Assembly: GCF_020622265.1 (NCBI RefSeq)
Contig: NZ_JACNMQ010000003.1
Span: 310,001 to 374,000, forward strand
Reading direction: 5' to 3'
Source of the DNA: Halomonas sp. M20
GTDB lineage: Bacteria > Pseudomonadota > Gammaproteobacteria > Pseudomonadales > Halomonadaceae
Length of the DNA: 64,000 nucleotides
Shown here in pieces: positions 12,003 to 45,177 of the stretch. Below the pieces are notes generated by a model. That model was not told where the DNA came from. It searched no databases and worked only from the letters and a program-made list of their open reading frames with translations. Every line of letters starts with the position of its first letter. Position 1 is the stretch's first letter. The position numbers were made by a program, and so were the translations under genes.

Positions 12003-12062
12003 CGAATTAGCCGTCTCTATTCATGAAGAGTCGATCAGGCTAGCGGCTTTGTGAGTCGATTC

Positions 12063-12094: not shown

Positions 12095-12347
12095 CAGGAA
12101 TTTGTAAATGAAAGACCTTTTTCTACTTGTATTGCTGACGTTCGAAGGACTCTAAGCAGAAAGTAGACAATTCTCGCATTTGTTATACAAATAGTTTCTT
12201 TCGCCTTGAAAACAAGGGGTTAGAACGGCTTTTTTTTCTGCAATAAACTTGGCGCATTTATTCAATTCCTGACGACATCTCTCCGCTATTAATGGCTGAC
12301 ATACATTTGTTAGCTTTTACGACAACTACAGCTAAGGGGAAGTCATT

Positions 12348-25671: not shown

Positions 25672-25674
25672 GGG

Positions 25675-28600: not shown

Positions 28601-29010
28601 TAGCGATAGGAAAGCACCTGAGCGTGGTCCGCTTTCTTGTTTGACTTCCCCGCTGGCTTCACGGCCGAGACGGGCTTGTTCTTCGGCGGATGCAACGGCA
28701 ACTCCGCGGGAGTCTCCTGCATTTCCAGAGTTAGGGCAGGAGCGGAAGATTCCTGAATCGAGGATTCTTGTCGCGCCAGTTCGGGGGTTGTCCCTTTCGC
28801 CAAAAAGACCGAGCCGCCGCGACCGCGTCCCTTGTCGAGTACGCCTTCGGTGAGCAACGCTTTCTGCACGCGCCAATAATCCGCTTCCGCCGCCGGCTCG
28901 CCCGTAGCGTTTGCCAGCAGTTTCTGAAGTTTGGCGTTGCCAATAGTGCTGCCGTCGGCGGGAACGTGAGAAAGGATCAGCTCGCGCAGTTGGGCGTCGG
29001 AGTGGCTCAT
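25675..29010 (-). CDS. Site-specific DNA methyltransferase of type III Mod-like class
   Basis: From the ATG at 29010 (ribosome site AGGAAATCCTTC) the product has 1111 residues. An N-terminal winged-helix-like region spans about residues 5-75 (LRELILSHVPADGSTIGNAKLQ). The catalytic motif DPPYG is at about residue 325 and the AdoMet motif DPTCGSGTT at about 614. This order is that of beta-class amino-methyltransferases, which make N6-methyladenine or N4-methylcytosine, including type III Mod subunits. The region between the motifs (about 385-600) should hold target recognition. Its DNA (about 27215-27850) is much more AT-rich than either side, which suggests a swapped recognition domain. The long C-terminal part has no motif I recognise. 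It is the first gene of a three-gene defence unit. Confidence 0.9.
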   Translation of the reverse strand: MSHSDAQLRELILSHVPADGSTIGNAKLQKLLANATGEPAAEADYWRVQKALLTEGVLDKGRGRGGSVFLAKGTTPELARQESSIQESSAPALTLEMQETPAELPLHPPKNKPVSAVKPAGKSNKKADHAQVLSYRYDEKRKNNPHVGMVDTASDGVEEKNTWAYDPHLDPELRFDSSATRAQIENLIDDALASGDQAQMKAALEELKRLQSPYLQWTGKAERTSFEVDTVSLHVHERIDPATILAAVQKKLKSGKQGGKESSSTFQPDMFHAPFENLPLREAIDFYKHERDWANRLIAGDSLLVMNSMLHKEGMAGQVQMIYIDPPYGIKYGSNFQPFTHKRDVTDRRDEDLTQEPEMIKAFRDTWELGIHSYLTYLRNRLLLARELLSDSGSIFVQISDENLHHVKELLDEIFGSKNLISVITTKKTGGMGEQFIDNVSDYVVWFSKDSGKAKFRRLYKDKVVGEGPGERYNQIEDNFGKVRPLKKEEKRHPKTIPSCCRVFLGGPLVSETASESTTFDFMLQGKGLRPNKGGWKTSAKGMEKLIRASRLRLTKDFVNYKIYVDDFPAVVLTNLWDDTMGTAEQGKAYVVQTTTRVIERCILMTTDPGDLVLDPTCGSGTTAYVAEKWGRRWITCDTSRVAVTLAKQRLMTASYDYFELKYPQEGLRGGFIYKTVPHITLKSIANNPEIDEIYEKKHPAIQHCLERLNEALQKEPPSRAFTVTEGARKGQQIDFVKNAGKTQTLPSGEEVPVNALLEWEVPFDYPEHWNQEALHALAGFHSCRQAMQQQMDTSIANHAGQEVLFDQPTVSKDKRRITGPFTVEAVPFATVLGLDEAEQPKEADVAVARSGATSRHAQWRDELLKAGIRGKGGQHLKLMDLETLPGMKYLHAVGTVTDTGERVAVSFGPEYAALEQRQVEIAKNEAGDLFPLPKLLVFCAFTFDPEAAKDIDSIKGIQALKVQMNTDLLTEDLKKNSRSNESFWLMGQPDVEIHELKGGKLQVEVHGFDYFDTKTGELKSGGKRDIAVWELDTDYDDRSLYPRQVFFPMAGKKDGWYKLKKDIRAELNEEQLDKFHGTKSLPFEPGDNRCIAVKIVDNRGIESLKVIRLD

Positions 29011-29376
29011 GAAGGATTTCCTAGCGTACTCAGATTCATTCGATGGGCGATAGCATACCGCAAAGCCATTTATCCTGGTGCTTGGATTGGGCCAAGGCAA
29101 GATCGGCTATTCTGCGTATTGCATGATGCGAGCAAGTCTGGCCGATGCTGAGACTCTGGAGGCGCCCCGCTGACACTTGGACGCAGGGGAGCATACAGTC
29201 TCGAGCTGAAAGCGCTATCAAGATATCAATGCGTTGGACGATAATGATGTTCAGCACCTCCTTTTCTTTCTTTTTATAGAAATAGACCCGTTATCGGCTT
29301 TATTCCCACGATTGCCCTAAGGCAAGACAGTGATAAGTTGATTACCAACTTACAATATTCTTCGCAGGGCCCACCA
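29011..29376. other. Spacer between the restriction system and lipoprotein gene
   Basis: These 366 bases separate the divergent methyltransferase and lipoprotein genes and must hold both promoters. I see no coding frame with a ribosome site, no RNA gene and no clear repeat. The part near 29250-29285 is T-rich. Confidence 0.5.
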
Positions 29377-30087: not shown

Positions 30088-31110
30088 TCACTCATCCAGC
30101 AGAGAACGTAGCTCGAGATAAAGCTTTTCCGATATCTCGATGCCATCTTTCTCGCTTTTCTCTCTGTTTTTATAGCGCCTTCCCGAAGGCAGTCGAGCAC
30201 CTTGGGATTCGACTGAGTCGAAAAGAGTTTCGGCGCGGGCCAAATGCTCCTCGAAATTCCTGCCTGCAGTCATGGCGGGGTCCATGGCGATTATCACCTC
30301 GCCGTGGTAAGGCAATGCGCCTTTGCTCTTATCATGTTGTGATGATTCATAGCTCATCAGGTCGCCTATCAAGGGGCCGGCGATAAGCTCGATCATCATG
30401 GAAAGTGCTGCTCCCTTGTGTTCGCCGAATGTCAGCAGGGCTCCTTTCTCGAGTACCGTTCGCGGGTCGTTGCATCCTTGTCCCTTCGAGTCGACTCCCC
30501 AGCCATCGGGTATCGGCTTGCCTTCGCGCTCGTATAGTTCGACATCGCCCCTAGCGACCGTGCTGGTGGCGAAGTCGAAGACGAAGGGCGGCTTACCGGG
30601 TCTTGGCCAGCCAAATGCAAACGGGTTGGTGCCGAGAAGCGGCGCGCTTCCGCCATGTGGGGCGACATAAGCCTGGGTAGGGTTGCAGGCAATTGCTACC
30701 AAACCTTGCCTGGTGATCTGCTCTACTTCGATCCAGAGCGCGGAAAAATGCACGCAGTGGTTGATGGCAAGCAGCGCGATGCCATTCTCTTTCGCCTTTT
30801 CTATCAGCAGCGGTAGGCCAAGAGAGAAAGAGAGCTGTGAGAAGCCGCCATTGGCATTGATGCGTACGATGCTGCCTGAAGCGTCTTCGACATGAGGCTC
30901 GGCATCCGGGACGACGCCGCCCGCCTCTAGCGTCTTGATGCAGCCCAGGATTCGGTAAAGGCCGTGGGAGCCGCAGCCGTCTTTTTGTCCCGCAACGACC
31001 GTCTCGCTTAGCCCGCGCGAGACGTCTTTGCTGAAGCCTTTTTTCAACAATATATTCCGGGACATGGTCAGCGCGTCTTCTTCGCTCAAGAACACCGTTT
31101 TATCCGCCAT
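30088..31110 (-). CDS. dpkA: Ldh-family NAD(P)H-dependent imine reductase, Delta1-piperideine-2-carboxylate reductase-like
   Basis: The 340-residue protein belongs to the malate/L-sulfolactate/DpkA dehydrogenase family, which uses NAD(P)H without a Rossmann fold. Family features are DGCGSHGLYRILG, INHCVHFSALW, PHGGSAPLLGTNPFAFG and FGEHKGAALSMMIEL. It resembles, as I recall it, the Pseudomonas putida DpkA enzyme, which reduces Delta1-piperideine-2-carboxylate (from D-lysine) to L-pipecolate and also the pyrroline homologue. Its position directly after amaA (37-base gap, same strand), whose substrate would be L-pipecolate, strongly supports that role. A general 2-keto acid or ureidoglycolate dehydrogenase is the alternative. 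It is the last gene of the minus-strand lysine unit. Confidence 0.8.
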   Translation of the reverse strand: MADKTVFLSEEDALTMSRNILLKKGFSKDVSRGLSETVVAGQKDGCGSHGLYRILGCIKTLEAGGVVPDAEPHVEDASGSIVRINANGGFSQLSFSLGLPLLIEKAKENGIALLAINHCVHFSALWIEVEQITRQGLVAIACNPTQAYVAPHGGSAPLLGTNPFAFGWPRPGKPPFVFDFATSTVARGDVELYEREGKPIPDGWGVDSKGQGCNDPRTVLEKGALLTFGEHKGAALSMMIELIAGPLIGDLMSYESSQHDKSKGALPYHGEVIIAMDPAMTAGRNFEEHLARAETLFDSVESQGARLPSGRRYKNREKSEKDGIEISEKLYLELRSLLDE

Positions 31111-31147
31111 GGCAACCTCGCTATTGTTGAATGGAGTTTACGAGTTT

Positions 31148-32428
31148 TCATGCGACCACGCGCAAGCATTGCCCAGCATGGTAAAGCGTGAATCCGCTCT
31201 CATAGGCGAAGCTACGTGCCCCAATGGCGGAAACGGGCTTCCGGTATCGAATGGGTAGCGGCAGCTCTTCATCCGAGTCATCCTGAATCAACTTGGCGAA
31301 GCCCTTGCCCACGACCGTACCTGTCGTGACGCCGCGGCCGTTATAGCCGGAAACCGCCAATATGCCCCGAGCAGGCGAGAACAGGCGTAACATATGGTCC
31401 GGGGTGAAACCGATCTGGCCGGTCCAGGTGTACTCCCACTTGAGTTTGCCAAGCTGAGGGAAGTAGTCATCCTTGATGCGGTCTGCCCAGCATTTGATGA
31501 ACGCCAGTGGTTTACTCTCACCACGCCCCAGGCTACCCAGCAGCAATCTGCCTTCGGCGTCGCGGCGCAGACTGCTGAGAACGGTGCGCGTATCCCAGGC
31601 GCCCTGGCGCTCCGGCAGGATCTCACCAGCCAATTCATCGGATAGCGGTCTCGAGGCGACCTGGAAGAAGTGGCCGCAAAAGAAATGCTGGCGAACCTGA
31701 TTCCAGTGATCCTCGGTGTAGGCGTTGGTAGCGATTACCAGGCGCGGTGCTTTGACGCTACCCTTGGCGGTAAATGCGCACCAGTCATCACCTTGGCGTT
31801 CAATACCGGTCACGGCACTATGGATATGAAGTCGAGCACCCGCCCCCGAGGCAGCCCGCGCCAAGCCCCGAGTATAAGCAGTGGGATTGAGCGTGCCGGC
31901 ACGTTTGTCCAGTAACGCGCGACGAATGCGCTGGGTGCCGATGCGCTGCCGGCAGGCCTCGTCTTCGAGCAGTTCCACCGGTGCGCCCCGTTGCTGGAAT
32001 TGCTTGAAGCGACGCTCCAGCTCCCCTGCACCCATGTCGTTATGCGCCAGGTACAAGGTACCGGTTCGAGTCGCGTCACAGTTGATGTGATGCTTCTCGA
32101 TCAGCTTGAAAACCTCGGCGGGCGCGCCGCCGAGCACCCGGTTGGCCCGCTCGCCATCTTCCGGACCCAGAGTTTCGAGAATATCGTCCGGTGGAATCCA
32201 CAGCCCCGCATTGACCAGACCCACGTTGAGTCCCGAGCCGCCGCTGGGTATGTCCCCGGCCTCGAGCAGGGTCACCTTTATGCCGGCCTCGGCTAGGTGC
32301 AGCGCAGTGCTAAGCCCGGTGATACCACCGCCGATCACGACAACCTCGGCGGTGTGATCACCCTGCAGCGCATCAAGAGGCAGGGCTGGTTCCGGGGAGG
32401 TGTCGTACCAGAGACAGGCGGATTTCAT
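31148..32428 (-). CDS. amaA: FAD-dependent L-pipecolate oxidase
   Basis: The 426-residue protein is a DadA/GlpD-type flavoenzyme with the dinucleotide motif at about residue 30 (VVVIGGGITGLSTALHLAEAG). Downstream blocks include GSGLNVGLVNAGLWIPPDD, TRTVLSSLRRDAEGRLLLGSLG and the C-terminal ESGFTLYHAGQCLRVV. These match my memory of Pseudomonas putida AmaA, which oxidises L-pipecolate to Delta1-piperideine-6-carboxylate, in equilibrium with alpha-aminoadipate semialdehyde. The ATG has an AAAGGAGAGCAT ribosome site. It lies between the NSS transporter pair and the dpkA-like gene. amaB, whose product takes the next step, is the first gene of the same strand cluster. Confidence 0.85.
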   Translation of the reverse strand: MKSACLWYDTSPEPALPLDALQGDHTAEVVVIGGGITGLSTALHLAEAGIKVTLLEAGDIPSGGSGLNVGLVNAGLWIPPDDILETLGPEDGERANRVLGGAPAEVFKLIEKHHINCDATRTGTLYLAHNDMGAGELERRFKQFQQRGAPVELLEDEACRQRIGTQRIRRALLDKRAGTLNPTAYTRGLARAASGAGARLHIHSAVTGIERQGDDWCAFTAKGSVKAPRLVIATNAYTEDHWNQVRQHFFCGHFFQVASRPLSDELAGEILPERQGAWDTRTVLSSLRRDAEGRLLLGSLGRGESKPLAFIKCWADRIKDDYFPQLGKLKWEYTWTGQIGFTPDHMLRLFSPARGILAVSGYNGRGVTTGTVVGKGFAKLIQDDSDEELPLPIRYRKPVSAIGARSFAYESGFTLYHAGQCLRVVA

Positions 32429-32458
32429 ATGCTCTCCTTTGCAATGCTAACGGCGTAG

Positions 32459-32758
32459 CTAGGTAGCGGCCGACTCATCGCGCCAGTCGTAGAAGTGTCG
32501 GGGATTGTCTTGCAGCGCCCGTTGCTGGGTATCGAGCAGTTCACGCATTTCCTCGGCTTGCTCACCCTCGGGATGGTGAGCAAGCCAGCCTTCGAGGTCG
32601 CGCATTGCCCGGGGCGAGAGAGGCTCGAAGCTCTTTTGCGTTTCGAGCAGGGTGAGTTTGCGTTCCTCCTGGCGCATCGAGTAGACGAGCGCAGTGCTGG
32701 CTACACCCCACAGGGCGATAATGCAGGCAATCATGACGATAATGGCGGTAAGACTCAT
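32459..32758 (-). CDS. MetS-like small subunit of the NSS transporter
   Basis: From the ATG at 32758 the protein has 99 residues. The N-terminus is a single membrane helix (SLTAIIVMIACIIALWGVASTALVYSMRQ), followed by a charged cytoplasmic tail. Small one-helix proteins of this type (MetS in Corynebacterium glutamicum) are needed by certain sodium-dependent amino acid transporters and are encoded right after them. Here the ATG overlaps the transporter stop by four bases (ATGA). The tail, about 70 residues with EPLSPRAMRDLEGWLAHHPEGEQAEEM, is longer than in the minimal MetS that I know. The longer open frame from 32827 lies mostly inside the transporter gene and is not chosen. Confidence 0.75.
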   Translation of the reverse strand: MSLTAIIVMIACIIALWGVASTALVYSMRQEERKLTLLETQKSFEPLSPRAMRDLEGWLAHHPEGEQAEEMRELLDTQQRALQDNPRHFYDWRDESAAT

Positions 32759-34206
32759 GATGACTGGCCTCCGACGCTGGTGGCAGGATAGGCGTCTCCC
32801 TGGCGGCGACCCATGATCCACATGCAAAGCGGAATCGTCAGCGTCAGGATTATCAAGCCACTGACGGTCTTCCAGGGCGTCGCGGTCAGGTTGCTGTAGA
32901 GGAAATAAACCATGATGAAGAGCATGATCGCCGGGATCTCGAAACGAATGATGCTCTCCCAGAATTTAGGCACGTATAGATCGGCACCGCGATTGAGGCT
33001 GAGAATGCGCAAGCGATTGGCATCGAACTTCCAGCCAATACTGAGCATGATGATGAAGGTCGCCAACGGCAGTCCCCAGTTGCCCACCACGAAGTCCAGA
33101 TAGCCGAGGATGGAGGCGTTCATGGCGCTTGGAATGCCCAGCAGCCAGATGATGCCGCAGATGGTCAACACCGCCTTGCCGCGAGAAGTCTTGAGCTCTT
33201 CCTTGTAGGTGGTTACACCGACTTCGGTGATGGCGATCGCGGTGGTCAGATTGGCGAAGAAGAAGCCCATGAAGAACAGCAGCGCCCAGATATAACCACC
33301 GGACATGTTGCCGAAGGCGCTGGCCAGGGCCACGAAGGCAAGCTCCGCCCCGGAGGTCGGCGAGATACCCATGGCGAAGACGATGGGAAATACAGCAAAG
33401 ATAGCCAGCAAGCCGAAGCTGGTATTGCCGATGGCGGTGAATATGCCACCGCCCAGGGGAATATCGTCGTCGCGCCCCAGATAGCTGCCATAGGTCAAGG
33501 CGATGCCCCAGCCGAGCCCCGTCGAGAACAGTGCCTGTCCCAGTGCGGCGAGCCAGGTTTGACCTCGGGCCAGATACTCCCAGTCCGGCGAGAAGCTGAA
33601 CTCGAGCCCGGCCATCGCACCCGGCAGGGTCACGCCGCGTATGGCGATGGCGATCAGCGAAACGGTGAGGATGGGCATCATCCATTTGGCCAGGCGTTCG
33701 ATGCCGCCCTTGATGCCCTTGAGCAGAATGACCGTGACGATCAACATCGCAACGGTATGCATGCCCACGTTCAAGGCAGTATTGCTGCTGAATGCCTGCC
33801 ATAGGGCGGCGGTATCGAACTGTGTCTGAGTGAAGGAGCCGATTACCGCATGATAGGTGTAATAGATCGACCAGCCGACGATCGAGGAGTAATAGGACAT
33901 CAACACGATGTTGAAGACCAGGATCACCAGCCCGAAGCCAACGAACTTGTTGTTGCCGTATATCTTGCGGAAAGTGCCGAGCAGCCCTTGGCGTGTATAG
34001 CGCCCAAGGCTGGTTTCACCCATCAGGCCGGGCACGGCGATCAAGTAGAGTAGTATGAAATAGGCGATCAGAAAGGCGCCGCCGCCGTTCTCGCCGGTGA
34101 CATAGGGCATCCGCCAGATGTTGCCGGCACCGACCATGGCCCCGACTACCGCCATCAGGTAGCCGAACCGGCTACCCCATTGTTCTCTTGAAATTGTCGT
34201 TGTCAT
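32755..34206 (-). CDS. Sodium-dependent amino acid transporter, NSS/SNF family
   Basis: The protein has 483 residues from the ATG at 34206 (GGAG seven bases upstream) and about twelve membrane segments. The N-terminal NSS signature is clear: EQWGSRFGYLMAVVGAMVGAGNIWRMPYVTGENGGGAFL, shown here in two overlapping blocks as GSRFGYLMAVVGAMVGAGN and IWRMPYVTGENGGGAFL. It should co-import Na+ and an amino acid. An in-frame ATG at 34233 has no better ribosome site. The context, between a lysine-type binding protein and L-pipecolate oxidase, suggests a lysine-derived substrate such as pipecolate or hydroxylysine (inference). Characterised relatives import methionine, alanine, tryptophan or leucine. 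Confidence 0.9.
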   Translation of the reverse strand: MTTTISREQWGSRFGYLMAVVGAMVGAGNIWRMPYVTGENGGGAFLIAYFILLYLIAVPGLMGETSLGRYTRQGLLGTFRKIYGNNKFVGFGLVILVFNIVLMSYYSSIVGWSIYYTYHAVIGSFTQTQFDTAALWQAFSSNTALNVGMHTVAMLIVTVILLKGIKGGIERLAKWMMPILTVSLIAIAIRGVTLPGAMAGLEFSFSPDWEYLARGQTWLAALGQALFSTGLGWGIALTYGSYLGRDDDIPLGGGIFTAIGNTSFGLLAIFAVFPIVFAMGISPTSGAELAFVALASAFGNMSGGYIWALLFFMGFFFANLTTAIAITEVGVTTYKEELKTSRGKAVLTICGIIWLLGIPSAMNASILGYLDFVVGNWGLPLATFIIMLSIGWKFDANRLRILSLNRGADLYVPKFWESIIRFEIPAIMLFIMVYFLYSNLTATPWKTVSGLIILTLTIPLCMWIMGRRQGDAYPATSVGGQSS

Positions 34207-34259
34207 CGCTTGGCTCCATGACGCGTCAGTCAAGTGGGCGACACGCTATCCTCGCGACT

Positions 34260-34334
34260 CCGTTAAAACGGCGAGGTTGTGACGGAAGCCGCAGTCAATC
34301 GAGGGTACTTCCTTGTTCCCGTTATATTTAACGG
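34260..34334. promoter_or_regulatory. Two CCGTT...AACGG palindromes upstream of the NSS transporter gene
   Basis: CCGTT-AA-AACGG lies at 34260-34271 and CCGTTA-TATT-TAACGG at 34319-34334, both in the 140-base gap between the binding-protein and transporter genes. Similar arms at two places suggest an operator pair for one regulator rather than a terminator, as no T run follows on the minus strand. Confidence 0.35.
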
Positions 34335-34346
34335 CGCTTAGCACAA

Positions 34347-35120
34347 TCAGGAAGCGTCTCCCTCCGGGAAATACTTGGTATAAATCTCGTCGTAGGTACC
34401 ATCTTCTTTTAATTCCGCCAGCGCTTTGTTGAACTTCTCCACGAGCGCTTGATCGCGCTTGCGAAATGCAATGCCGAACCCTTCGCCGAAGTACTTCTCC
34501 GGTTCGTTGATGAGCTCTCCGATTATTCGGTACTCGCCGTTACCGTCATCGAGCAGTGCAGCGACTCCCGCGGGATGATCGAGAAAGATCAGGTCCACGC
34601 GATCCGACTGCATGTCCATGATCATGTCCGAGGTGGTCGAGTAGCGGTTGATGGCGGCAACGTCACTGAAGGTGTCGGTAACGTAGTTGTCCTGAAGCGT
34701 GCCGCGCTGAACGCCGATAGTCTTGCCTTTCAGACCGTCCGAATCGATCTCGTCCAGCTCTGAGTCGCTTTCGCCAAACCAGGCGGAGTAGGGTTTGATG
34801 TAGGGGGCGGAAAACAGCACGGTTTCGCGTCGCGAGTCATTGATCGTCATGGACGACATGATGGCGTCGTACTTGCGGGCCAGCAGGGCCGGGATGATCC
34901 CGCTCCAACCTTGAACTATCCATTCGCATTCGAGCCCTAGGGATTCGCATAGGGCGTTGCCTAGATCGATGTCGAAGCCGGTGAGTTCGCCGTTAGGCAG
35001 GCGATACTCCATGGGAGCCGTGGGGACATCCACGCCGAAGCGCAGCGAGTCGTCAGCCTGGGCGACGCTGGTCAATGACAGCAGCACACCGGCGGTAAAG
35101 GTTACGAGTTTGTTGTTCAT
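34347..35120 (-). CDS. Periplasmic amino acid-binding protein (lysine/arginine/ornithine type)
   Basis: The 257-residue protein has a signal peptide (NKLVTFTAGVLLSLTSVAQA) and the family-3 solute-binding domain: SLRFGVDVPTAPMEYRLPNGELTGFDIDLGNALCESLG, seen as FGVDVPTAPMEYRLPNGEL and FDIDLGNALCESLG. ARKYDAIMSSMTINDSRRE and GFGIAFRKRDQALVEKFNKAL are typical of binding proteins for basic amino acids. No ABC permease or ATPase gene is present nearby, so its membrane partners must be elsewhere. It is 108 bases downstream of the kinase-lyase gene on the same strand. Lysine or hydroxylysine is a likely ligand from context. Confidence 0.88.
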   Translation of the reverse strand: MNNKLVTFTAGVLLSLTSVAQADDSLRFGVDVPTAPMEYRLPNGELTGFDIDLGNALCESLGLECEWIVQGWSGIIPALLARKYDAIMSSMTINDSRRETVLFSAPYIKPYSAWFGESDSELDEIDSDGLKGKTIGVQRGTLQDNYVTDTFSDVAAINRYSTTSDMIMDMQSDRVDLIFLDHPAGVAALLDDGNGEYRIIGELINEPEKYFGEGFGIAFRKRDQALVEKFNKALAELKEDGTYDEIYTKYFPEGDAS

Positions 35121-35228
35121 GGTGATGAAATCCTATGGCTATTGGAATGTTGTTGCCGAAAGACAGCATCCTGCGACGTTGCTTGCACCCTCTTTTGAGT
35201 TGGAAAAATTCGCTTCCATGTATGCCAG

Positions 35229-37541: not shown

Positions 37542-37598
37542 GAGGGCATCCTTACGAAGGCGTGCTTGGGGCGACTCCAGGAAGCCGCCCTTGTCTGC

Positions 37599-39092
37599 TC
37601 AATCGAACTTGATCCCTTGAGCCAGGGGCAGTTCGCGGGAGTAGTTGACGGTATTGGTCTGGCGACGCATGTAGCTTTTCCACACGTCCGAGCCGGACTC
37701 GCGGCCGCCGCCGGTTTCCTTCTCGCCGCCGAAGGCGCCGCCAATCTCCGCGCCGCTGGGGCCGATGTTGACGTTGGCGATACCGCAGTCGCTGCCCACA
37801 TCCGAGGTGAACATCTCCGCCTCGCGCACGTCGCAGGTGAAGATGCAGGATGACAACCCTTGGGGCACATCGTTATGCACTCTCATCGCCTCATCGAACT
37901 CGCGATAGCTCATGACATAGAGGATCGGGGCGAAGGTCTCGCGCTTGACCAGCTCATCCTGCTGTTCGACTTCGACGATAGAGGGGCTGACGTAGTAGCC
38001 CTCTGAGCACTGCTCGATCTGTTGGCGTTCGCCACCGAACACCCTGGCACCCTGTTCCTTGGCCTTGCCGAGCACCGACTGCATCTGCTCGAAGGCCTGG
38101 CTGTCGATCAGCGGGCCGACCAGATTCCCCTTCATGGGATCGCCGATGGAGACGCCGCTATAGGCCTTCTTGAGGCGTTCGATTACCTCGTCCTTGACGG
38201 ATTCATGAACGATCAGGCGGCGCAGGCTGGTGCAGCGCTGCCCCGCAGTGCCCACCGCCGAGAACAGGATGGCGCGCACCGCCAGGTCCAGATCGGCGCT
38301 GGGCGCCAGGATCATGGCGTTGTTGCCGCCCAGTTCGAGGATGCTGCGACCGAAGCGTGCCGCGACCCGAGGGCCCACGTCGCGACCCATACGGGTGCTG
38401 CCGGTGGCGCTGAGCAGCGGGATTCGGGGATCGTCGGCTAGCTTTTCGCCGGCGGCACGATCTCCGACGATCACCTGGCTTAGATTCTCGGGGGCCTCGT
38501 CGCCGAATTCAGCCATGGCGCGCTCCAACAGCGCCTGGCAGGCAAGGGCGGTGAGCGGCGTTTTCTCAGAAGGCTTCCAGATCAAACTGTTGCCGCATAC
38601 CAGTGCCAGGGCGGCGTTCCAGGCCCAGGGTGCCACCGGGAAGTTGAAAGCGGTGATCAGGCCGACCGGGCCGAGCGGATGCCAGGTTTCACGCATGTGA
38701 TGCCCCGGGCGTTCGGAGGCGATGGTCAGGCCGAACAGTTGCCGCGACTGACCGACTGCCAGATCGCAGATGTCGATCATCTCCTGCACTTCACCCTGGC
38801 CCTCCGGCAGGATCTTGCCGCACTCGTGAGAGACCAGAGCGCCCAGGTCGTCCTTGTGGCGGCGTAGCTGCTCGCCGAACAGGCGTACCAGCTCACCGCG
38901 TCGCGGTGCCGGCACCCGACGCCACTGTTCGAAAGCCTGCACGGCCTTGGCAATATGCGCATCCACCGCCTCAGCGTCTTCCAGGCGAACCTTGCCGATC
39001 ACACTGCCGTCGGTCGGTGTGGTCACATCATAGTCGCCCTGCTGGTACTGCTCGGTCGTTACACCGAGACGCTGCATGAGGGAATCGATCAT
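37599..39092 (-). CDS. amaB: Alpha-aminoadipate semialdehyde dehydrogenase (ALDH7 type)
   Basis: From the ATG at 39092 (strong AGGAGGAACA ribosome site) the protein has 497 residues. Family-7 aldehyde dehydrogenase features are visible: NFPVAPWAWNAALALVCGNS, general-base glutamate in SILELGGNNAMI, the catalytic cysteine in GTAGQRCTSLRRLIV and GGAFGGEKETGGGRESGSDVW. The relatives antiquitin (ALDH7A1) and Pseudomonas AmaB oxidise alpha-aminoadipate semialdehyde (piperideine-6-carboxylate) to 2-aminoadipate with NAD+. Both upstream branches in this cluster, pipecolate (AmaA) and hydroxylysine (kinase-lyase), end at this substrate. It heads the minus-strand unit and shares a 126-base divergent region, with a conserved motif, with the LysR gene. 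Confidence 0.92.
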   Translation of the reverse strand: MIDSLMQRLGVTTEQYQQGDYDVTTPTDGSVIGKVRLEDAEAVDAHIAKAVQAFEQWRRVPAPRRGELVRLFGEQLRRHKDDLGALVSHECGKILPEGQGEVQEMIDICDLAVGQSRQLFGLTIASERPGHHMRETWHPLGPVGLITAFNFPVAPWAWNAALALVCGNSLIWKPSEKTPLTALACQALLERAMAEFGDEAPENLSQVIVGDRAAGEKLADDPRIPLLSATGSTRMGRDVGPRVAARFGRSILELGGNNAMILAPSADLDLAVRAILFSAVGTAGQRCTSLRRLIVHESVKDEVIERLKKAYSGVSIGDPMKGNLVGPLIDSQAFEQMQSVLGKAKEQGARVFGGERQQIEQCSEGYYVSPSIVEVEQQDELVKRETFAPILYVMSYREFDEAMRVHNDVPQGLSSCIFTCDVREAEMFTSDVGSDCGIANVNIGPSGAEIGGAFGGEKETGGGRESGSDVWKSYMRRQTNTVNYSRELPLAQGIKFD

Positions 39093-39156
39093 TGTTCCTC
39101 CTGGAAATACTGTGAATCGCGAACACTGCCCAGCAGTATCACCAGAGGCATTGACC

Positions 39157-39203
39157 CGCCTCAAACGACGTTTTATACAGATGTCATTCCTTTTTTTCTT
39201 GAT
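39157..39203 (-). promoter_or_regulatory. Conserved two-block element upstream of amaB
   Basis: On the minus strand, ATCAAGAAAAAAAGGAAT (39203-39186) is followed after 17 bases by TCGTTTGAGGCG (39168-39157). The first block is identical over 18 bases, and the second over 10 of 12, to a pair at 40189-40235 in front of hglS, with exactly the same spacing. It begins 16 bases before the LysR start codon and ends 65 bases before amaB, so it could serve both divergent genes. Confidence 0.75.
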
Positions 39204-39218
39204 CCTGAGGTGAGAAGC

Positions 39219-40142
39219 ATGAATCGTCAGCATCTGCCGTCTTTAACGGCCATGCAGTGCTTCGAGGCAGCAGCGCGGCATCTGAGCTTCACTCGTGCGG
39301 CGGCGGAGCTGTGCCTGACCCAGAGCGCGGTGAGCAAGCAGGTGGCACAGCTCGAGTCGATCCTCGAGCAGCGCCTGTTCCGGCGTGTTCGCAAGCGCCT
39401 GCAAGTGACGCCGGAAGGCTCGCTGTATCTCACCGATGTGCGCAAGATTCTGGCTCAGGTCGAGATGTCCATGCGCTACATGCAGTCCTATGGCGGTGAG
39501 AGCGAGGTGCTCAAGGTAACTACCCTGCCCACCTTCGGCGCCCGTTGGCTGATACCCCGGCTCAATGGATTCCGCTTTCGCCATCCCAAGGTCTATCTCG
39601 ATATCAGCAACCGTATCGAACCCTTCGACCTGGAGAAGGAGCGCGTCGATGTGGCCTTCTTCTTCGGTCACGGAGCCTGGCCCAGGGCGGAATGCATCAA
39701 GCTGCTCGACGAGGAAGTGGTGCCGGTGTGTGCCCCGACGGTGTTGCCGACGCAGCGTTTGAGCGATCCATTGGCGTTGACCAAGTTGGTGTTGCTACAG
39801 AGTGCGACGCGCCCCGAAGCCTGGCACGAGTGGTTCGAGGCGCAGGGTTGCTATACCGAACACAGCTACCACGGGCCGCGCTTCGACACCTTCTCCATGG
39901 CGCTACGCGCCGCTAGGGCCGGCTGCGGCGTGGCGTTGGTGCCGCGCTTTCTCGCCGAGGAAGAACTCGAGACGGGCCAGTTGATCATCCCCTGGACGTT
40001 CGCCCTGAAAAGCTACGATGCGTATTATCTGGCTTATCCCGAGCATATGGGCGAGGTGGCCAAGGTGCGCGGCTTCATCGACTGGATTCTCGAGCATCGT
40101 GAGACGGCAGCTGCTCCGTCTCTTGCTGCGAGCGTTTCATGA
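39219..40142 (+). CDS. LysR-family regulator (GcvA-like) of the lysine/hydroxylysine island
   Basis: The 307-residue protein starts at the ATG at 39219 (TGAGGTGAGAAGC). The helix-turn-helix spans about residues 8-65 (LPSLTAMQCFEAAARHLSF, then CLTQSAVSKQVAQLES) in the GcvA/AmpR style. An effector domain follows (LKVTTLPTFGARWLIPRLNGFR, then APTVLPTQRL). A longer open frame from 38955 runs into amaB and is not supported. It is divergent from amaB and followed by hglS on the same strand. Copies of one conserved DNA element lie in front of both amaB and hglS, which makes this protein the best candidate to bind them. The co-inducer might be aminoadipate or a related intermediate (inference). Confidence 0.88.
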   Translation: MNRQHLPSLTAMQCFEAAARHLSFTRAAAELCLTQSAVSKQVAQLESILEQRLFRRVRKRLQVTPEGSLYLTDVRKILAQVEMSMRYMQSYGGESEVLKVTTLPTFGARWLIPRLNGFRFRHPKVYLDISNRIEPFDLEKERVDVAFFFGHGAWPRAECIKLLDEEVVPVCAPTVLPTQRLSDPLALTKLVLLQSATRPEAWHEWFEAQGCYTEHSYHGPRFDTFSMALRAARAGCGVALVPRFLAEEELETGQLIIPWTFALKSYDAYYLAYPEHMGEVAKVRGFIDWILEHRETAAAPSLAASVS

Positions 40143-40188
40143 AGATCATGCACGATTATTGCCAGGCCTCGGGTGCATTGAGTCTCGC

Positions 40189-40235
40189 ATCAAGAAAAAA
40201 AGGAATATGTAGCCCGCCTTTTTTCGCTTGAGCCG
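40189..40235 (+). promoter_or_regulatory. Conserved two-block element upstream of hglS
   Basis: ATCAAGAAAAAAAGGAAT (40189-40206) and, 17 bases on, TCGCTTGAGCCG (40224-40235) copy the element in front of amaB in the same orientation relative to the target gene. TCAAG and CTTGA at the two ends are inverted, in line with a dyad bound by a LysR-type tetramer. It ends 94 bases before the hglS ATG. Confidence 0.75.
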
Positions 40236-40329
40236 CTGCCCTCGGGCTGTTCTCATCTTACCTATCTTTGTCATCGGGCAACTCCGCCAGCAAACCCGAT
40301 ACAGTAATGAACCTTCTCAGGAGTACTGC

Positions 40330-41720
40330 ATGACCACGACGTCCTTCGTCTCCAGCGACGAGATTCGCACGCGTTTCTCTCAGGCGTTATCCGCCATGTA
40401 CCAGGCGGAGGTGCCGCAGTACGGCACGCTGCTGGAGCTTGCCGATCAGGTCAACCAGGAAACACTTGCGGCCAATCCCACCCTCGCCGAGCGCCTTGAA
40501 TCTGATAGTGAGCTTGATCGGCTGGACGTCGAGCGCCACGGTGCGATCCGCGTCGGCACAGCGGAAGAACTTGCCATGCTGCGCCGCCTGTTCGCGGTGA
40601 TGGGCATGCAGCCGGTGGGCTATTACGATCTCTCCGAGGCCGGTGTGCCGGTACACGCCACCGCATTTCGCCCCGTCGACGAGGCAGCCCTCAAACGCAA
40701 CCCCTTTCGTATCTTTACCTCATTGCTGCGCCTGGAGCTGATCGAGAGTGCTGAGCTGCGCGAGCGAGCTTCGGCCATTCTTGCCGAGCGCGACATCTTT
40801 ACCCCGGGCGCCCGGGAACTGATCGCACTTTACGAGGAACAAGGCGGCCTCAGCGATACGCAGGCGGATCGCTTCGTTGAAGAGGCGCTGGAGACCTTCC
40901 GCTGGCATCACGACGCCACCGTGGATCACAAGACCTATCAGGCGCTGCTCGAAGAGCACCGCCTGATCGCCGATGTGGTCTGCTTCCGCGGGCCGCACAT
41001 CAACCATCTGACGCCACGCACTCTGAACATCGACGAGGTGCAGCGGCGCATGCCGGACGTCGGCATGAATCCCAAGGCGGTGATCGAAGGCCCGCCCCGG
41101 CGCAATTGCCCGATCCTGCTGCGTCAGACCAGCTTCAAGGCCCTGGAGGAGCAGGTGCATTTCGACGGCGAGCACCAAGGCACCCATACCGCCCGCTTCG
41201 GTGAGATCGAACAGCGCGGTGCGGCGCTGACAGCCAAGGGACGCGCTCTCTATGACCGGCTTTTGGCAACCGCCCGGAAGCAAACCGCGGGCCTTGATAA
41301 TCGTGCCCATCAGCAGAGGCTGAGTGAGATATTCGCCGAGTTTCCGGACAGCGAAGAGCAACTTCGCCGCGAAGGTCTAGCCTTCTTCGATTACCGGCTC
41401 ACCGATAAAGGACGTGAGGAAGGGGCCGAATGCGACGAGGACGAAGAACTGGAAACGCTGATCGCCCAAGGGCTGGTCAGCGCCCGGCCGATCACCTACG
41501 AAGATTTTCTGCCGGTGAGCGCGGCGGGCATCTTTCAGTCGAACCTGGGGGGGGCAGTCACGAAACCTACGCCGGCAATGCCAACCGGGAGGCCTTCGAG
41601 GCAGCGCTGGGTGCTCCTGTGACCGATGAGTTAGCGCTATACGCCGCCCTTGAAAAGGCTTCCGCCGAGCGGGTGCGAGAGTGCCTGGCCGAAGCCTCTA
41701 AACTTGAAGTCGATGGATGA
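40330..41720 (+). pseudogene. hglS: 2-oxoadipate dioxygenase/decarboxylase (DUF1338), frameshifted near the C-terminus
   Basis: HglS converts 2-oxoadipate to 2-hydroxyglutarate and CO2 with Fe(II) and O2 in the aminoadipate branch of lysine catabolism. Starting at the ATG at 40330 (TCAGGAG), the residues reported for the Pseudomonas putida enzyme fall at the same numbers: metal ligands His70 (DVERHGAIR), His226 (RGPHINHLTPR) and Glu294 (FGEIEQRG), and substrate-binding Arg74. The frame breaks in a run of eight G at 41547-41554, about residue 406. As written the protein ends with unrelated residues at 41622. Adding one G restores NLGGGSHETYAGNANREAFE and a normal end at 41720, about 463 residues. 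Thus either a recent mutation, a slippery phase-variable tract or a sequencing error is present. The metal centre is upstream of the break, but the C-terminal domain would be lost. Confidence 0.88.
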
Positions 41721-41753
41721 TCACGCCGCCTGATTGACTGGGGCCAACAAGAA

Positions 41754-41907
41754 TTAGCGAATCGCTGAATAAATCGCCGAGTGAAATGAAGTGCAAGGCG
41801 CACGAAGCACAGAAGACGAGACATAACATGGGGTTAGGCGAGTCTTCGAGCACCGCGCAACACAGCAATTCGTTCATGCAGGCATTTATTCAGTGATTCT
41901 TTAGCGA
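41754..41907. mobile_element. MITE-like non-coding element
   Basis: GAATCGCTGAATAAAT (41759-41774) and ATTTATTCAGTGATTC (41884-41899) are inverted repeats with one mismatch, enclosing about 109 bases without a gene. TTAGCGA occurs at both outer edges (41754-41760 and 41901-41907), as expected for a target duplication. The right end touches the ribosome site of the E1 gene. There is no second copy in this window to prove mobility. Confidence 0.5.
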
Positions 41908-41921
41908 GGAGCCAAACAACA

Positions 41922-44123
41922 ATGAACCCCTTCCCCTTGGAAGAGCGCCTGTTCGAGGTATTACGCGACGGTGACTGGCCGAGCCCCGCCCAGGCGTGGC
42001 GTCTCGATGAAGTGGGGCTGACGGCGCCGATGCTTGCGGAGCTGTTCGAGTCCCAGGTGCTCAGCCGCCAACTGGACCTGCATGCCCGGCGGCTGCAGGC
42101 CCGCGGCGAGGCGTTCTATACCATCGGCAGCTCCGGCCACGAAGGCAACGCGGCGATCGCCGCCGCGTTTCGGGTGACCGACCCAGCGTTCCTGCACTAT
42201 CGCGACGCGGCTTTTCTGCTCCAGCGCAGCAAGCAGTTGCCCGGGCAGACGCCAATCTACGACATGCTGCTGAGTTTCGCCGCCTCGAGCGAAGACCCGA
42301 TCTCCGGTGGCCGCCACAAGGTGCTGGGCTCCAAGGCGCTCAACGTGCCGCCCCAGACCAGCACCATCGCCTCGCACCTGCCCAAGGCGGTGGGTGCCGC
42401 CCATGGCCTCGGCCTGTGGCGTCGCATACGCGGATCGGGGGAGTGGCCAACGGACAGCGTGGTGCTGTGTAGCTTCGGCGATGCCTCCTTCAACCACTCG
42501 ACGACCCAAGGGGCGCTCAACGCAGCGGCCTGGGCGGCCTACCAGGGCACGCCGATGCCCCTGGTCATGATCTGCGAGGACAACGGCATCGGCATCTCCA
42601 CGCCGACCCCCGCCGGCTGGATCGAACGAAGCATGCGCGGGCGCCCCGGCTTTCACTACATCAGTTGCGACGGGCTCGATCTGCTTGATACCTACCGTGC
42701 TGCTCGTGAGGCGGAACGCCTGGCGCGACGCCTCAAACAGCCGGTGTTTTTGCACATGCACTGCGTGCGCCTGATGGGCCACGCCGGTTCCGACGCTCAG
42801 CAGTCTTATCTCTCGGCGAAGCAGATCAAGGCCGCCGAGGCTCGCGATCCGCTGCTGTACAGCGCCGGCCTGTTGATACGTCATGGCGTGCTCGAACCCG
42901 AGACCATTCAGGCGCTTTACCATCATATTGGCGAACGGGTCGCCCAGGTCGCGGAAGTGGCGATTCGCCAGCCCAAGCTGGAAAGCGCCGAGGCGGTGAT
43001 GGCCTCCATCGTGCCGCCGCATCGCCCCAGCCGTCGTCAGTCCATCGAAAGTGAAGTCGATAAAACGCCGGCGACCATGGCCCGGCTGCTCAGCCAGACC
43101 CTGTATCGGCTGATGGCGGAATACCCGCACCTGGTCATGGCCGGGGAGGACATCGGCCGCAAGGGCGGCGTCTACGGCGTGACCCAGCGGCTGCAGGCCA
43201 AGTACGGCGCCTATCGCATCATCGATACCCTGCTCGACGAGCAGAGCATTTTAGGGCTGGGCATCGGCCTGGCCCAGAACGGCTTCGTGCCCATCGTCGA
43301 GATACAGTTCCTGGCCTATCTGCACAACGCCGAGGACCAGCTGCGCGGCGAGGCCTCCACGCTCAGCTTCTTCTCGAAGGGGCAGTACACTAACCCCATG
43401 GTGATACGCATCGCCGGTCTCGGCTATCAGAAGGGCTTCGGCGGGCATTTCCACAACGACAACGCTATCGCCGTGCTGCGCGACATTCCCGGCCTGCTGG
43501 TGGCTTGCCCGTCGAACGCCGCAGACGCGGTGGGGCTCTTGCAGGAGGCGGTGCGCCTGGCGGACGAGGAGCAGCGCATCGTGGTGATGCTCGAACCCAT
43601 CGCCCTGTATCACTGTCGCGATCTCATTGAGGAAGGCGATCAGCGCTGGAGCTTTGCCGATCCCGGCCCGGAATATCATCTGCCCGTGGGTTCGCTGGGC
43701 CAGTGGGGCGAGGGGCGCGATCTGGCGATCCTCACCTACGGCAACGGCGTCTATCTCGCGCATCAGGCCCGGGAGCGGCTCGAGGCCCAGGGCATCCAAC
43801 TTCGCATCATCGATCTGCGCTGGCTGACGGCGCTGGATCACGACGAGATACATCGTCGGGTCAACGACTGCGCCCAGATATTGTGCGTGGACGAATGCCG
43901 CCGCAGTGGCTCGCCCAGCGAGGAGGTCATCACCGGCCTGGTGGAGCGAGGCGTGGAGTCTCATCGCCTGCACCGCCTGACCGCCGAGGACAGCTTCATC
44001 CCCCTGGGGCCGGCGGCGACGGTCACGCTGCCCTCGGTCGCGGCGATCATCGAGCGTGCGAAAGCCTTGTTCCCAAGCAAACCGCGTCTGAACGGACAAC
44101 AACAGGAAGCCGGACATGAGTGA
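41922..44123 (+). CDS. TPP-dependent 2-oxoacid dehydrogenase E1, alpha and beta fused
   Basis: The 733-residue protein joins a branched-chain-type E1 alpha domain (about residues 30-350) and an E1 beta domain (about 375-715). The thiamine pyrophosphate motif is GDASFNHSTTQGALNAAAW followed by MICEDNGIGIS. The beta part shows MAGEDIGRKGGVYGVTQRL, TLLDEQSILGLGIGLA and FHNDNAIAVLRDIPGL. Such E1 enzymes decarboxylate a 2-oxoacid and hand the acyl group to lipoyl E2. No E2 or E3 gene is nearby. Instead the gene overlaps a FabD-like acyltransferase by eight bases. Placement after hglS points to 2-oxoadipate or another lysine-derived oxoacid as substrate (inference). The ribosome site is AGCGAGGAGCC. 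Confidence 0.85.
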   Translation: MNPFPLEERLFEVLRDGDWPSPAQAWRLDEVGLTAPMLAELFESQVLSRQLDLHARRLQARGEAFYTIGSSGHEGNAAIAAAFRVTDPAFLHYRDAAFLLQRSKQLPGQTPIYDMLLSFAASSEDPISGGRHKVLGSKALNVPPQTSTIASHLPKAVGAAHGLGLWRRIRGSGEWPTDSVVLCSFGDASFNHSTTQGALNAAAWAAYQGTPMPLVMICEDNGIGISTPTPAGWIERSMRGRPGFHYISCDGLDLLDTYRAAREAERLARRLKQPVFLHMHCVRLMGHAGSDAQQSYLSAKQIKAAEARDPLLYSAGLLIRHGVLEPETIQALYHHIGERVAQVAEVAIRQPKLESAEAVMASIVPPHRPSRRQSIESEVDKTPATMARLLSQTLYRLMAEYPHLVMAGEDIGRKGGVYGVTQRLQAKYGAYRIIDTLLDEQSILGLGIGLAQNGFVPIVEIQFLAYLHNAEDQLRGEASTLSFFSKGQYTNPMVIRIAGLGYQKGFGGHFHNDNAIAVLRDIPGLLVACPSNAADAVGLLQEAVRLADEEQRIVVMLEPIALYHCRDLIEEGDQRWSFADPGPEYHLPVGSLGQWGEGRDLAILTYGNGVYLAHQARERLEAQGIQLRIIDLRWLTALDHDEIHRRVNDCAQILCVDECRRSGSPSEEVITGLVERGVESHRLHRLTAEDSFIPLGPAATVTLPSVAAIIERAKALFPSKPRLNGQQQEAGHE

Positions 44124-45177
44124 GCTGACCCAGCCATCCCCCAAGGAACGCCTGTTGATCGTCTGCCCCGGGCGCGGCACCTACAACCAGGCGGAGTGGG
44201 GCACCCTGACCCGCCACGCCACCGGCAGCGAATGGCTTGCGCGCTTCGATGCGCTGCGTCGCGAGCAAGATCAGCCCACCCTCAGCGAACTCGACGGCGA
44301 GACCCCGTTCCGTTTGAGCTTGCACGGCCGCGGCGATCACGCCTCGCCGCTGATCTACGCTTGCGCCCTGACGGATGCGCTGGCCATCGACCAGGAGCGT
44401 TACGAGATCTGCGCCGTAACCGGCAACTCCATGGGCTGGTACATCGCCCTGGCCCTCGGCGGCGCGCTGTCCCAGAACGACGCCTTCACGCTGATCAACA
44501 CCATGGGCCACCTGATGCAGACCACCCTCAATGGCGGACAGCTGCTCTATCCCTGGGTCGACGACCAGTGGCGGCCACAGCCCGAGCGCCGCCGGGAACT
44601 GCTGGCGTTGATCGAGAAACTGCATGGCCAGGACGGCAGTGAGCTTTATCTTTCCATCGATCTTGGCGGCATGCTGGTATTCGGCGGCAACGAAGCAGGG
44701 CTCAAGCGGCTTACCGAGGAGCTACCGCCAATGGAGCGCTTTCCCATGCGCCTGCATCAGCACGCGGCTTTTCACACGCCGATGCAGGAAGGCGTGAAGG
44801 CTGAGGCCAGAACGCGCCTGCCGGCGACGCCGTTTCAGGCGCCCGAGGTGCCGTTGATCGACGGCCGCGGCAAGCTCTGGACGCCCTGGAGCACCGATCC
44901 GGAAGCACTGTGGGACTATACCCTCGGCGAACAACTGGTAACACCTTACGACTTCACCGCTGCCCTCAAGGTGGGTGTGCGCGAGTTCGCCCCGGACCGC
45001 ATCGTCATTCCCGGCCCTGGCTCGACCCTCGGCGGCGCCGTTGCCCAGGCGCTGATCCAGCTCAACTGGTGGGGGCTCGACAGCAAGGCGGCGTTTCAGG
45101 CCATGCAGCAGGATGACCCAAGACTGATCAGCATGGGGATTGAAGAGCAGCGAGAGTGGTTGGTGGGAAAGAAGTAG
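44116..45177 (+). CDS. FabD-like acyltransferase, unknown specificity
   Basis: The 353-residue protein has the malonyl-transferase (FabD) fold. The nucleophile Ser105 lies in VTGNSMGWYIALALGGALS, where the usual GHSLG elbow reads GNSMG. The partner histidine is His220 in QHAAFHTPMQEGV, and PGPGSTLGGAVAQALIQLNW closes the domain. FabD normally moves malonyl groups from CoA to acyl carrier protein and has an arginine that binds the malonyl carboxylate; I could not place that arginine with confidence. It is translationally coupled to the fused E1 gene. No acyl carrier protein or ketosynthase is near. A role in moving the acyl group made by the E1 enzyme is possible but unproven. Confidence 0.78.
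   Translation: MSELTQPSPKERLLIVCPGRGTYNQAEWGTLTRHATGSEWLARFDALRREQDQPTLSELDGETPFRLSLHGRGDHASPLIYACALTDALAIDQERYEICAVTGNSMGWYIALALGGALSQNDAFTLINTMGHLMQTTLNGGQLLYPWVDDQWRPQPERRRELLALIEKLHGQDGSELYLSIDLGGMLVFGGNEAGLKRLTEELPPMERFPMRLHQHAAFHTPMQEGVKAEARTRLPATPFQAPEVPLIDGRGKLWTPWSTDPEALWDYTLGEQLVTPYDFTAALKVGVREFAPDRIVIPGPGSTLGGAVAQALIQLNWWGLDSKAAFQAMQQDDPRLISMGIEEQREWLVGKK

Follow-up and report, generated by a model that had tools for sequence, protein, structure and literature searches.

Gene content of the locus

The window analyzed here, a stretch of 64,000 nucleotides from Halomonas sp. M20 (positions 310001-374000 of contig C9 in the 3.9-Mb genome G000), harbors a cluster of pipecolate catabolic genes in which a gene for a fusion of an APH-type kinase and a pyridoxal phosphate (PLP)-dependent lyase is placed between amaB and the gene of a periplasmic binding protein (Table 1). 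The initial annotation had described this cluster as an island in which a pipecolate and a 5-hydroxylysine branch of catabolism converge. All cluster genes that it named are present, and their identities were upheld by Pfam and NCBIfam models, with the exception of the lysR gene and a small open reading frame (ORF); two amendments concern hglS, which is frameshifted, and the genes at 41922-45177, which are not members of the cluster. The core of that proposal is probably right and better supported than before, and its account of the lower pathway needs correction. Based on sequence comparison and gene context, we consider it likely that the fusion protein acts as a hydroxylysine kinase and 5-phosphohydroxylysine phospholyase producing aminoadipate semialdehyde, that it belongs to a cassette within the pipecolate cluster, and that its substrate originates from collagen units.

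Table 1. Genes of the cluster in the window, with the evidence used to name them.
Feature	Position	Strand	Evidence
dpkA-like Ldh_2 reductase, delta1-piperideine-2-carboxylate reductase type	30088-31110	-	PF02615
amaA, L-pipecolate oxidase	31148-32428	-	NF050086, 677 bits (cut-off 600)
Small ORF, possible small transporter subunit	32459-32755	-	Position beside NSS gene
NSS/SNF sodium symporter	32755-34233	-	PF00209; NF037979, 119 bits (cut-off 50)
SBP3 periplasmic basic-amino-acid binding protein, Arg/LAO type	34347-35120	-	PF00497
Kinase-lyase fusion, 770 aa	35229-37541	-	APH 28-260, Aminotran_3 369-763
amaB, piperideine-6-carboxylate/aminoadipate-semialdehyde dehydrogenase, ALDH7 type	37599-39092	-	NF050084, 811 bits (cut-off 730)
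lysR-type regulator, divergent from amaB	39219-40142	+	Named from sequence and relatives, no model
hglS, 2-oxoadipate dioxygenase/decarboxylase	40330-41622 in frame	+	NF049974, 703 bits (cut-off 550)

The dpkA-like protein has a delta1-piperideine-2-carboxylate reductase (1wtj/2cwf/2cwh, 5.1e-75) as its best solved relative and matches no NCBIfam equivalog above its cut-off. For the small ORF, NCBIfam gave no match and Pfam a TPR match that was weak and fell short of the cut-off; we label it a possible transporter small subunit because it adjoins the NSS gene and because the same pair occurs in loci L123 and L124, where its homologues (65% and 58%, respectively) occupy the same place. The symporter belongs to the pipecolate cluster, and it adjoins amaA/amaB in the absence of a fusion in L123, L124, and L125. 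The binding protein scored 220 bits with TIGR01096, under the cut-off of 256; its best solved relatives are arginine- and lysine/arginine/ornithine-binding proteins, and no ATP-binding cassette (ABC) ATPase or permease gene lies beside it in the window. The start of amaB was set at MIDSLM. Homologues of the LysR protein (74-84%) are encoded beside amaB in G006, the other fusion-bearing genome of the genus, and in L123-L127, L129, and L130, and the HglS protein matched PF07063 over positions 1-386 of 386. No plasmid record spans as much as 80% of the cluster, and of the 46 records with a match the ten best align at the AmaB gene.

The fusion protein and its relatives

The fusion ORF is intact and has no M23 domain between its two halves, of which the kinase matched PF01636 with 59.6 bits (cut-off 23.2) and the lyase PF00202 with 256 bits (cut-off 30.5). 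Among solved structures, human ETNPPL (6tor; 405.6 bits, 3.6e-120) ranked first for the lyase half and a bacterial phospholyase (5g4i; 318.8 bits, 6.5e-94) second; the sole match of the kinase half at an E-value of 0.01 was homoserine kinase 2ppq (5.2e-8). The protein contains H193, D195, N200, and D216, which we take to be the residues of the catalytic HxD...N and DFG-like motifs of APH kinases, and K611, presumably the PLP lysine expected in the lyase half. An AlphaFold model (mean predicted local distance difference test, pLDDT, 87.2; predicted template modeling score, pTM, 0.67) is confident for the domains and uncertain for their arrangement, and adds nothing on the substrate.

Lyase sequences were compared in a tree built with FastTree, a quick method that left many weak branches and of which we used two splits. 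The first, with a support of 100, unites 82 rows (the window, G006, 79 of the 80 loci of the scan described below, and the M23-containing fusion of Sinorhizobium meliloti) and leaves 14 other class-III rows outside; the second, with the same support, unites the five rows of the window, G006, L031, L032, and L051. The 82 rows are separated from the 14 by 21 alignment columns. Among the distinctive positions, H397, N419, Y491-K492, E548, GME 635-637, and K744, all carried by the window lyase, occur in at least 93% of the clade rows and in at most 35% of those outside. Human ETNPPL, the animal lyase compared, shares the positions read, as judged by eye from the 6tor alignment. By these criteria the fusions would be placed with the animal-type phospholyases, a placement that does not resolve hydroxylysine from ethanolamine specificity. 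Among the matches listed, the closest named fusions are those of Halomonas and Vreelandella.

The same domains make up the PRK06148/PRK06149 kinase-M23-aminotransferase fusions, represented by that of S. meliloti (L024), whose lyase is 53.7% identical to that of the window. These proteins of about 1000 aa carry an M23 part in between, whereas the window protein does not, and it scored under the cut-offs of both models (776 of 1128 and 553 of 973). If the hydroxylysine assignment is true, it suggests a function for proteins that PRK06148 and PRK06149 call 'hypothetical protein' or 'aminotransferase'.

Aminoadipate-pathway genes beside related fusions

The genomes of 84,980 species were scanned with a four-sequence alignment, and the best 80 of 575 confirmed loci, which are not a random sample and are partly related, were retained. 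We counted 78 of them, excluding L053 (kinase and lyase in two ORFs) and L101 (no fusion ORF called). Neighbors were named by BLAST against reference proteins, and these references were in turn checked by Pfam or NCBIfam in a few loci; matches with less than 30% identity or less than 40% coverage were discarded, a filter that took out truncated pieces of LacZ and ALDH7 in L104. At a distance of up to three ORFs from the fusion, as used for all counts over the 78 loci, AmaB/ALDH7 proteins are encoded in 12 loci (three from Halomonas or Vreelandella), HGLS in 7, and a pair of saccharopine dehydrogenases in 6; any enzyme of the chain from aminoadipate semialdehyde to 2-oxoadipate is present in 23. 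The AmaB homologues tested (L040, L105, and L132) reached 824-838 bits with the piperideine-6-carboxylate dehydrogenase model (cut-off 730). A single protein of 1078 aa in L087 comprises the kinase, the lyase, and a C-terminal HGLS, and in Chitinophaga (L105) the genes SusC-SusD-LacZ-GH63-fusion-HGLS-AmaB follow each other on one strand (SusC and SusD assigned by eye). These partners meet at the chain leading from aminoadipate semialdehyde to 2-oxoadipate, which is predicted by a hydroxylysine route and not by an ethanolamine route. Both a chain enzyme and a glycosidase were found in 17 of the 78 loci, and at least one of the two in 41. The gene context, spread over several phyla, supports the proposal of the initial annotation that the fusion delivers aminoadipate semialdehyde and so meets the pipecolate branch at AmaB; the substrate and the reactions we infer.

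Other neighbors vary among these loci. The saccharopine-dehydrogenase-like pair was observed near the fusion in L033, L035, L038, L045, L046, and L050, and consists in L038 (12361-14597) of an AlaDh_PNT-type and a Sacchrp_dh-type protein; such loci may recycle hydroxylysine to lysine or use the same aldehyde in lysine degradation. An NhaC/ArcD-like antiporter, a candidate (hydroxy)lysine transporter, is encoded near the fusion in Halomonas (L031:8440-9948), Vreelandella (L051:5648-7243), and Colwellia (L038:14699-16183). In the acidobacterial locus L059 (2664-8376), the fusion is followed by genes for a class I/II aminotransferase, an ornithine-cyclodeaminase-like protein, and a trans-3-hydroxyproline dehydratase-like protein (338 bits, cut-off 540), the last being a possible hint, and only a hint, of collagen use. 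Pfam searches with neighbors from other loci returned RuvB, ATP synthase, an amino acid permease (L055), an oligopeptide transporter (L103), and others, and no rival pathway among them. The relatives in S. meliloti, Azospirillum, and Natribaculum have no HGLS and no AmaB-type protein beyond an aldehyde dehydrogenase of 27% identity (L026), LacZ not being among the references for them; they are neutral, neither supporting nor excluding the hydroxylysine reading.

Glycosidases beside related fusions

Within the same distance, 35 of the 78 loci encode a glycosidase (GH2 in 29, GH63 in 15, and GH42 in 4). The GH2 proteins tested are of the LacZ type (1003 bits in L105, 1054 in L040, and 1037 in L134; cut-off 999). 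The GH63 proteins tested are YgjK-like, with PRK10137 scores of 401 (L105) and 360 bits (L132), both under the cut-off of 625, and YgjK is the best solved match of the L105 protein (1.2e-82); L078 has a GH31 protein instead of GH63. LacZ and GH63 are joined in a single protein in L080 and L096 and, in the reverse order, in Phycisphaera (L048); their fusion in both orders speaks for two enzymes that act one after the other on one glycan. A glycosidase gene lies directly upstream of the fusion on the same strand in 32 loci, with gaps of -94 to 191 bases. Among the N-termini inspected by eye, those of the glycosidases mostly resemble secretion signals, whereas those of the two fusions do not. A GntR-like regulator (by eye) is encoded upstream of LacZ in alteromonad loci (12 loci within three ORFs), and GalK- and GalT-like genes (also by eye) lie on the other strand in L033, L040, L042, and L081. 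In 19 genomes with a fusion, the number of LacZ-type matches ranged from 0 to 4 per genome, and the only match of the genome adjoins the fusion in four of them (G089, G093, G094, and G095); this set was hand-picked (20 loci, 19 with LacZ beside the fusion) and shows copy number, not the rate of adjacency.

A less selected check was made with an even draw of 295 Bacteroidia genomes, the seed G078 included, using E-value limits of 1e-90 for the fusion and 1e-60 for GH63; the draws for the two queries were taken as the same 295 genomes. The fusion was found in 11 genomes, the L105-type GH63 in 7, and both in 4 (hypergeometric probability 3.5e-5), or both in 3 of the 294 genomes remaining without the seed (5.4e-4). 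In each case the fusion and GH63 genes share a contig and are no more than about 10 kb apart. Seven of the 11 fusions are of the M23 type, with about 1000 aa. In L132, from this draw, genes for HGLS, AmaB, GH63, GH42, the fusion, and a YdiJ-like protein (582 bits, under the cut-off of 1350) stand in a row, and in L134 LacZ adjoins an M23-type fusion.

Collagen is a very abundant animal protein, and YgjK prefers the disaccharide Glc-alpha1,2-Gal. An excerpt of PMC7263609 describes a complex of YgjK with glucose and lactose in which galactose is bound at subsite +1, and according to an excerpt of PMC8626586 the hydroxylysine of collagen carries Glc-alpha1,2-Gal. The combination of the same type of fusion with a beta-galactosidase and a YgjK-like alpha-glucosidase in distant bacteria thus suggests collagen glycosyl-hydroxylysine as the source of the substrate.

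Assembly of the cluster in the family

The comparison of gene order suggested in the initial annotation was run across the family and identified the fusion and the binding protein as an addition to a pipecolate cluster that otherwise stands without a fusion. The fusion is present in two of 14 genomes of the genus, G000 itself and G006. In all eight other amaB loci fetched from the same family (seven genomes), amaA is present and the fusion absent; a divergent lysR is found in seven of these loci, the transaminase in five, hglS in four, and NSS in three, and a homologue of window ORF 12348 occurs in three others of the eight. A ninth amaB match lies in a genome of another family. In the window and in G006, the fusion and the binding protein are encoded between amaB and the transporter. 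A different arrangement is seen in Halomonas (L031, L032) and Vreelandella (L051), where a fusion of 939-945 aa is located within three ORFs of amaB. Three ORFs lie between this fusion and the binding protein that follows it, and the flank covered lacks amaA. The first of the three ORFs is an ABC ATPase in L031, and the other two are putative permeases. Furthermore, L031 encodes the M23 part of PRK06148 separately (7456-8331), and the 940-aa fusion (9941-12763) keeps about 170 extra residues between kinase and lyase. The two arrangements indicate that the fusion and the binding protein behave as a cassette that joined the pipecolate cluster; in the window this cassette has lost, or never had, its ABC partners. 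The same chromosomal site in G012 has lysR and hglS and none of the genes from dpkA to amaB, and that stretch was therefore gained or lost as a block.

Proposed route and comparison with known systems

In the proposed route, the N-terminal kinase would phosphorylate free 5-hydroxy-L-lysine with a nucleoside triphosphate, and the C-terminal PLP domain would eliminate phosphate and ammonia from the resulting 5-phosphohydroxylysine to give 2-aminoadipate 6-semialdehyde. This aldehyde would cyclize to piperideine-6-carboxylate and be oxidized by AmaB to 2-aminoadipate, from which 2-oxoglutarate would be formed by a transaminase, HglS, and YdiJ. With the fusion and the binding protein added to the pipecolate cluster (dpkA-like gene, amaA, small ORF, NSS, amaB, lysR, and hglS), D-lysine/pipecolate and hydroxylysine would enter at the same aldehyde, and the natural source would be the Glc-alpha1,2-Gal-beta-O-hydroxylysine of collagen. 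We infer from gene context the substrate, both reactions, the collagen origin, the use of the pathway by the host, and the encounter of the host with free hydroxylysine released by others. A broader view seems fairly probable to us, namely that of a widespread and largely undescribed bacterial route in which secreted GH63 and GH2/GH42 enzymes, sometimes fused, would free collagen hydroxylysine and the kinase-phospholyase would turn it into aminoadipate semialdehyde, which AmaB, the transaminase, HGLS, and YdiJ would convert to 2-oxoglutarate, or on which saccharopine dehydrogenases would act in some marine bacteria, possibly making lysine; the window would then represent an amino-acid-only branch inserted in a pipecolate cluster. 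Gene context provides a candidate gene for each predicted step, and the route thereby becomes testable.

The animal hydroxylysine kinase (HYKK/AGPHD1) and 5-phosphohydroxylysine phospholyase (PHYKPL/AGXT2L2) were reportedly described by Veiga-da-Cunha and coworkers in 2012, and bacterial fusions are said to have helped in finding these enzymes. The predicted chemistry and the superfamilies (APH kinase and class-III PLP lyase) are the same, but the animal enzymes are two proteins, whereas the window has one polypeptide encoded with AmaB and its relatives add glycosidases and HGLS. In Pseudomonas, D-lysine and pipecolate are degraded by DpkA, AmaA, AmaB, the transaminase, HglS, and YdiJ, in this order. 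AmaA, AmaB, and HglS of the window and YdiJ from elsewhere in its genome pass curated models; here, however, a kinase-lyase entry is added, the genome lacks the transaminase, and hglS carries a frameshift. Use of 5-hydroxylysine by Pseudomonas fluorescens (Friede and Henderson 1976) is attributed to the lysine monooxygenase and racemase pathways in an excerpt of PMC12930750; it is likewise a bacterial use of hydroxylysine, but the excerpted account does not mention a kinase or phospholyase. Human PGGHG (GH65) is, in an excerpt of PMC8626586, the alpha-glucosidase for collagen Glc-alpha1,2-Gal-hydroxylysine; the predicted glycan target is the same, whereas the bacterial loci encode YgjK-like GH63 or, in L078, GH31 proteins together with GH2 or GH42. 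The excerpt of PMC13275390 reports a Herbaspirillum operon in which a gene annotated as hydroxylysine kinase lies beside a 4-aminobutyrate aminotransferase gene, and that of PMC2536512, on Pseudoalteromonas tunicata, deals with N6-hydroxylysine and collagenases and not with a hydroxylysine kinase-lyase route. In the open-licence literature of PubMed Central (PMC), preprints excluded, we found no description of a bacterial hydroxylysine kinase-phospholyase route or of its galactosidase link, and none of bacterial use of collagen Glc-Gal-hydroxylysine.

Alternative readings of the locus

Several observations weigh against the hydroxylysine assignment, in addition to the selected and partly related nature of the 80 loci. 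Neither a chain enzyme nor a glycosidase was found in 37 of the 78 loci counted; in the Bacteroidia draw, six of the 11 fusion loci have no reference gene of at least 30% identity (L138 has an ALDH match of 24%), and GH63 occurs without the fusion in three genomes. The sequence does not separate phosphoethanolamine from 5-phosphohydroxylysine lyases in a comparison that took ETNPPL as the animal reference. Two kinase-lyase fusions on long branches (L013 and L026) fall outside the group of the window, and the outside rows L012 and L025 are lyases with the kinase as a separate adjoining gene; the pairing is not confined to one clade, and therefore the function may differ among fusions. AmaB, the proposed meeting point, may serve pipecolate only in the window, and its presence alone is weak evidence there because the pipecolate cluster stands without a fusion in all eight other amaB loci fetched from the family. 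The guess of a collagen-derived source made in the initial annotation, strengthened as it is by the glycosidases beside fusions in relatives, is indirect for this host, since the window genome has no LacZ-type and no GH63 match (the GH63 query finds itself in G078); a beta-galactosidase and an alpha-glucosidase adjoin the fusion in relatives such as L105, L092, and L132, but not in the window. Finally, hglS in the window carries a frameshift, and a 2-aminoadipate transaminase is lacking.

These last two defects could mean that the pathway is decaying in the window genome, with an upper half that works or is a relic and a lower half that stops before 2-oxoglutarate, a possibility that we take seriously while holding it somewhat doubtful. 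The frame of hglS, the sole HGLS match in the genome, changes in a G-rich stretch near 41547, where the window reads CTGGGGGGGGCAGT and G006 reads CTGGGGGGCGGCAGT, a one-base difference; the gene is open to 41622 only, and the last ~55 residues, which match the C-terminus of the G006 protein, are encoded in another frame to about 41720. At the same site, hglS is open to its end in G006 (463 aa), G012 (463 aa), and G004 (482 aa). In a stretch so rich in G, a one-base difference might stem from an error in sequencing or assembly. The transaminase is absent from the cluster, as the initial annotation had claimed, and its best match in the genome is 44% identical. G006 encodes it between lysR and hglS (NF049976, 744 bits, cut-off 650), together with a TAXI binding protein and a TRAP permease (by eye, no model), two transporter-like genes that are likewise absent from this interval in the window. 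The best match in the window genome is a 4-aminobutyrate (GABA) transaminase (TIGR00700, 517 bits, cut-off 507; NF049976, 466 bits, cut-off 650), which might nevertheless act on 2-aminoadipate. The binding protein without ABC partners beside it would also fit decay; on the other hand, the minus-strand genes are open, and YdiJ, the enzyme of the last step, is encoded elsewhere in the genome and passes its model (1534 bits, cut-off 1350). With the frameshift and the missing transaminase, the lower branch to 2-hydroxyglutarate is less sound in this genome than the initial annotation assumed. A decaying pathway is compatible with the hydroxylysine assignment of the fusion enzyme itself.

It is improbable, in our view, that the locus amounts to a plain pipecolate cluster with a bystander fusion whose substrate is a different amino alcohol or a different hydroxylysine isomer. 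Such a role agrees with the eight amaB loci fetched from seven further genomes of the family, which combine amaA and amaB (seven with lysR) in the absence of the fusion, and with the occurrence of the fusion in just two of the 14 genomes of the genus, G000 among them. Yet the fusion is also found near AmaB without AmaA in the flank covered (L031, L032, and L051), and alteromonads and Bacteroidota have it close to ALDH7 or HGLS; among the 80 loci amaA homologues (39-40%) occur only in L035, two ORFs away, and in L042, at the far end. Similarly improbable is that the fusion is an ethanolamine kinase and phosphoethanolamine phospholyase making acetaldehyde, with incidental adjacency to amaB: the sequence is compatible with this function, and the closest solved relatives are the ethanolamine-phosphate phospholyase 6tor and the phospholyase 5g4i, but the recurring neighbors are ALDH7, saccharopine dehydrogenases, and HGLS (which is part of the L087 protein itself), three dehydrogenases pass the piperideine-6-carboxylate model at the scores given above, the sole acetaldehyde model listed, for L040, gave 218 against 900, and Pfam identified no ethanolamine-utilization gene among 20 proteins of 13 loci, a part of the neighbors only.

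Neighboring genes in the window

The initial annotation had extended the cluster to 45177. The segment 41922-45177 contains genes for an E1 alpha/beta fusion and an MdcH/FabD-like acyltransferase-like protein, which overlap by eight bases. E1 was found in seven of 38 genomes searched. As a member of the pathway the pair was rejected: in G004, G012, and G013, E1 occurs without amaB, without the fusion (at the limits used), and without amaA (in the stretch fetched), and the genes of this segment are regarded as resident neighbors. A similar pair (55% and 47% identity) lies near the fusion in Thalassotalea (L043), which we take as chance because acyl-CoA dehydrogenase-like and ArgR-like genes accompany it there.

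On the other side of the metabolic cluster, at 20942-29100, genes for a ResIII helicase, a Schlafen/AlbA_2 protein, and an N6/N4 DNA methylase stand in a row that resembles a type III restriction-modification system with an inserted partner. The segment 45336-48292 has a low GC content (0.47, compared with 0.57-0.65 in the other stretches measured); it encodes a 339-aa protein without a Pfam match and a PIN-domain protein (47885-48292).

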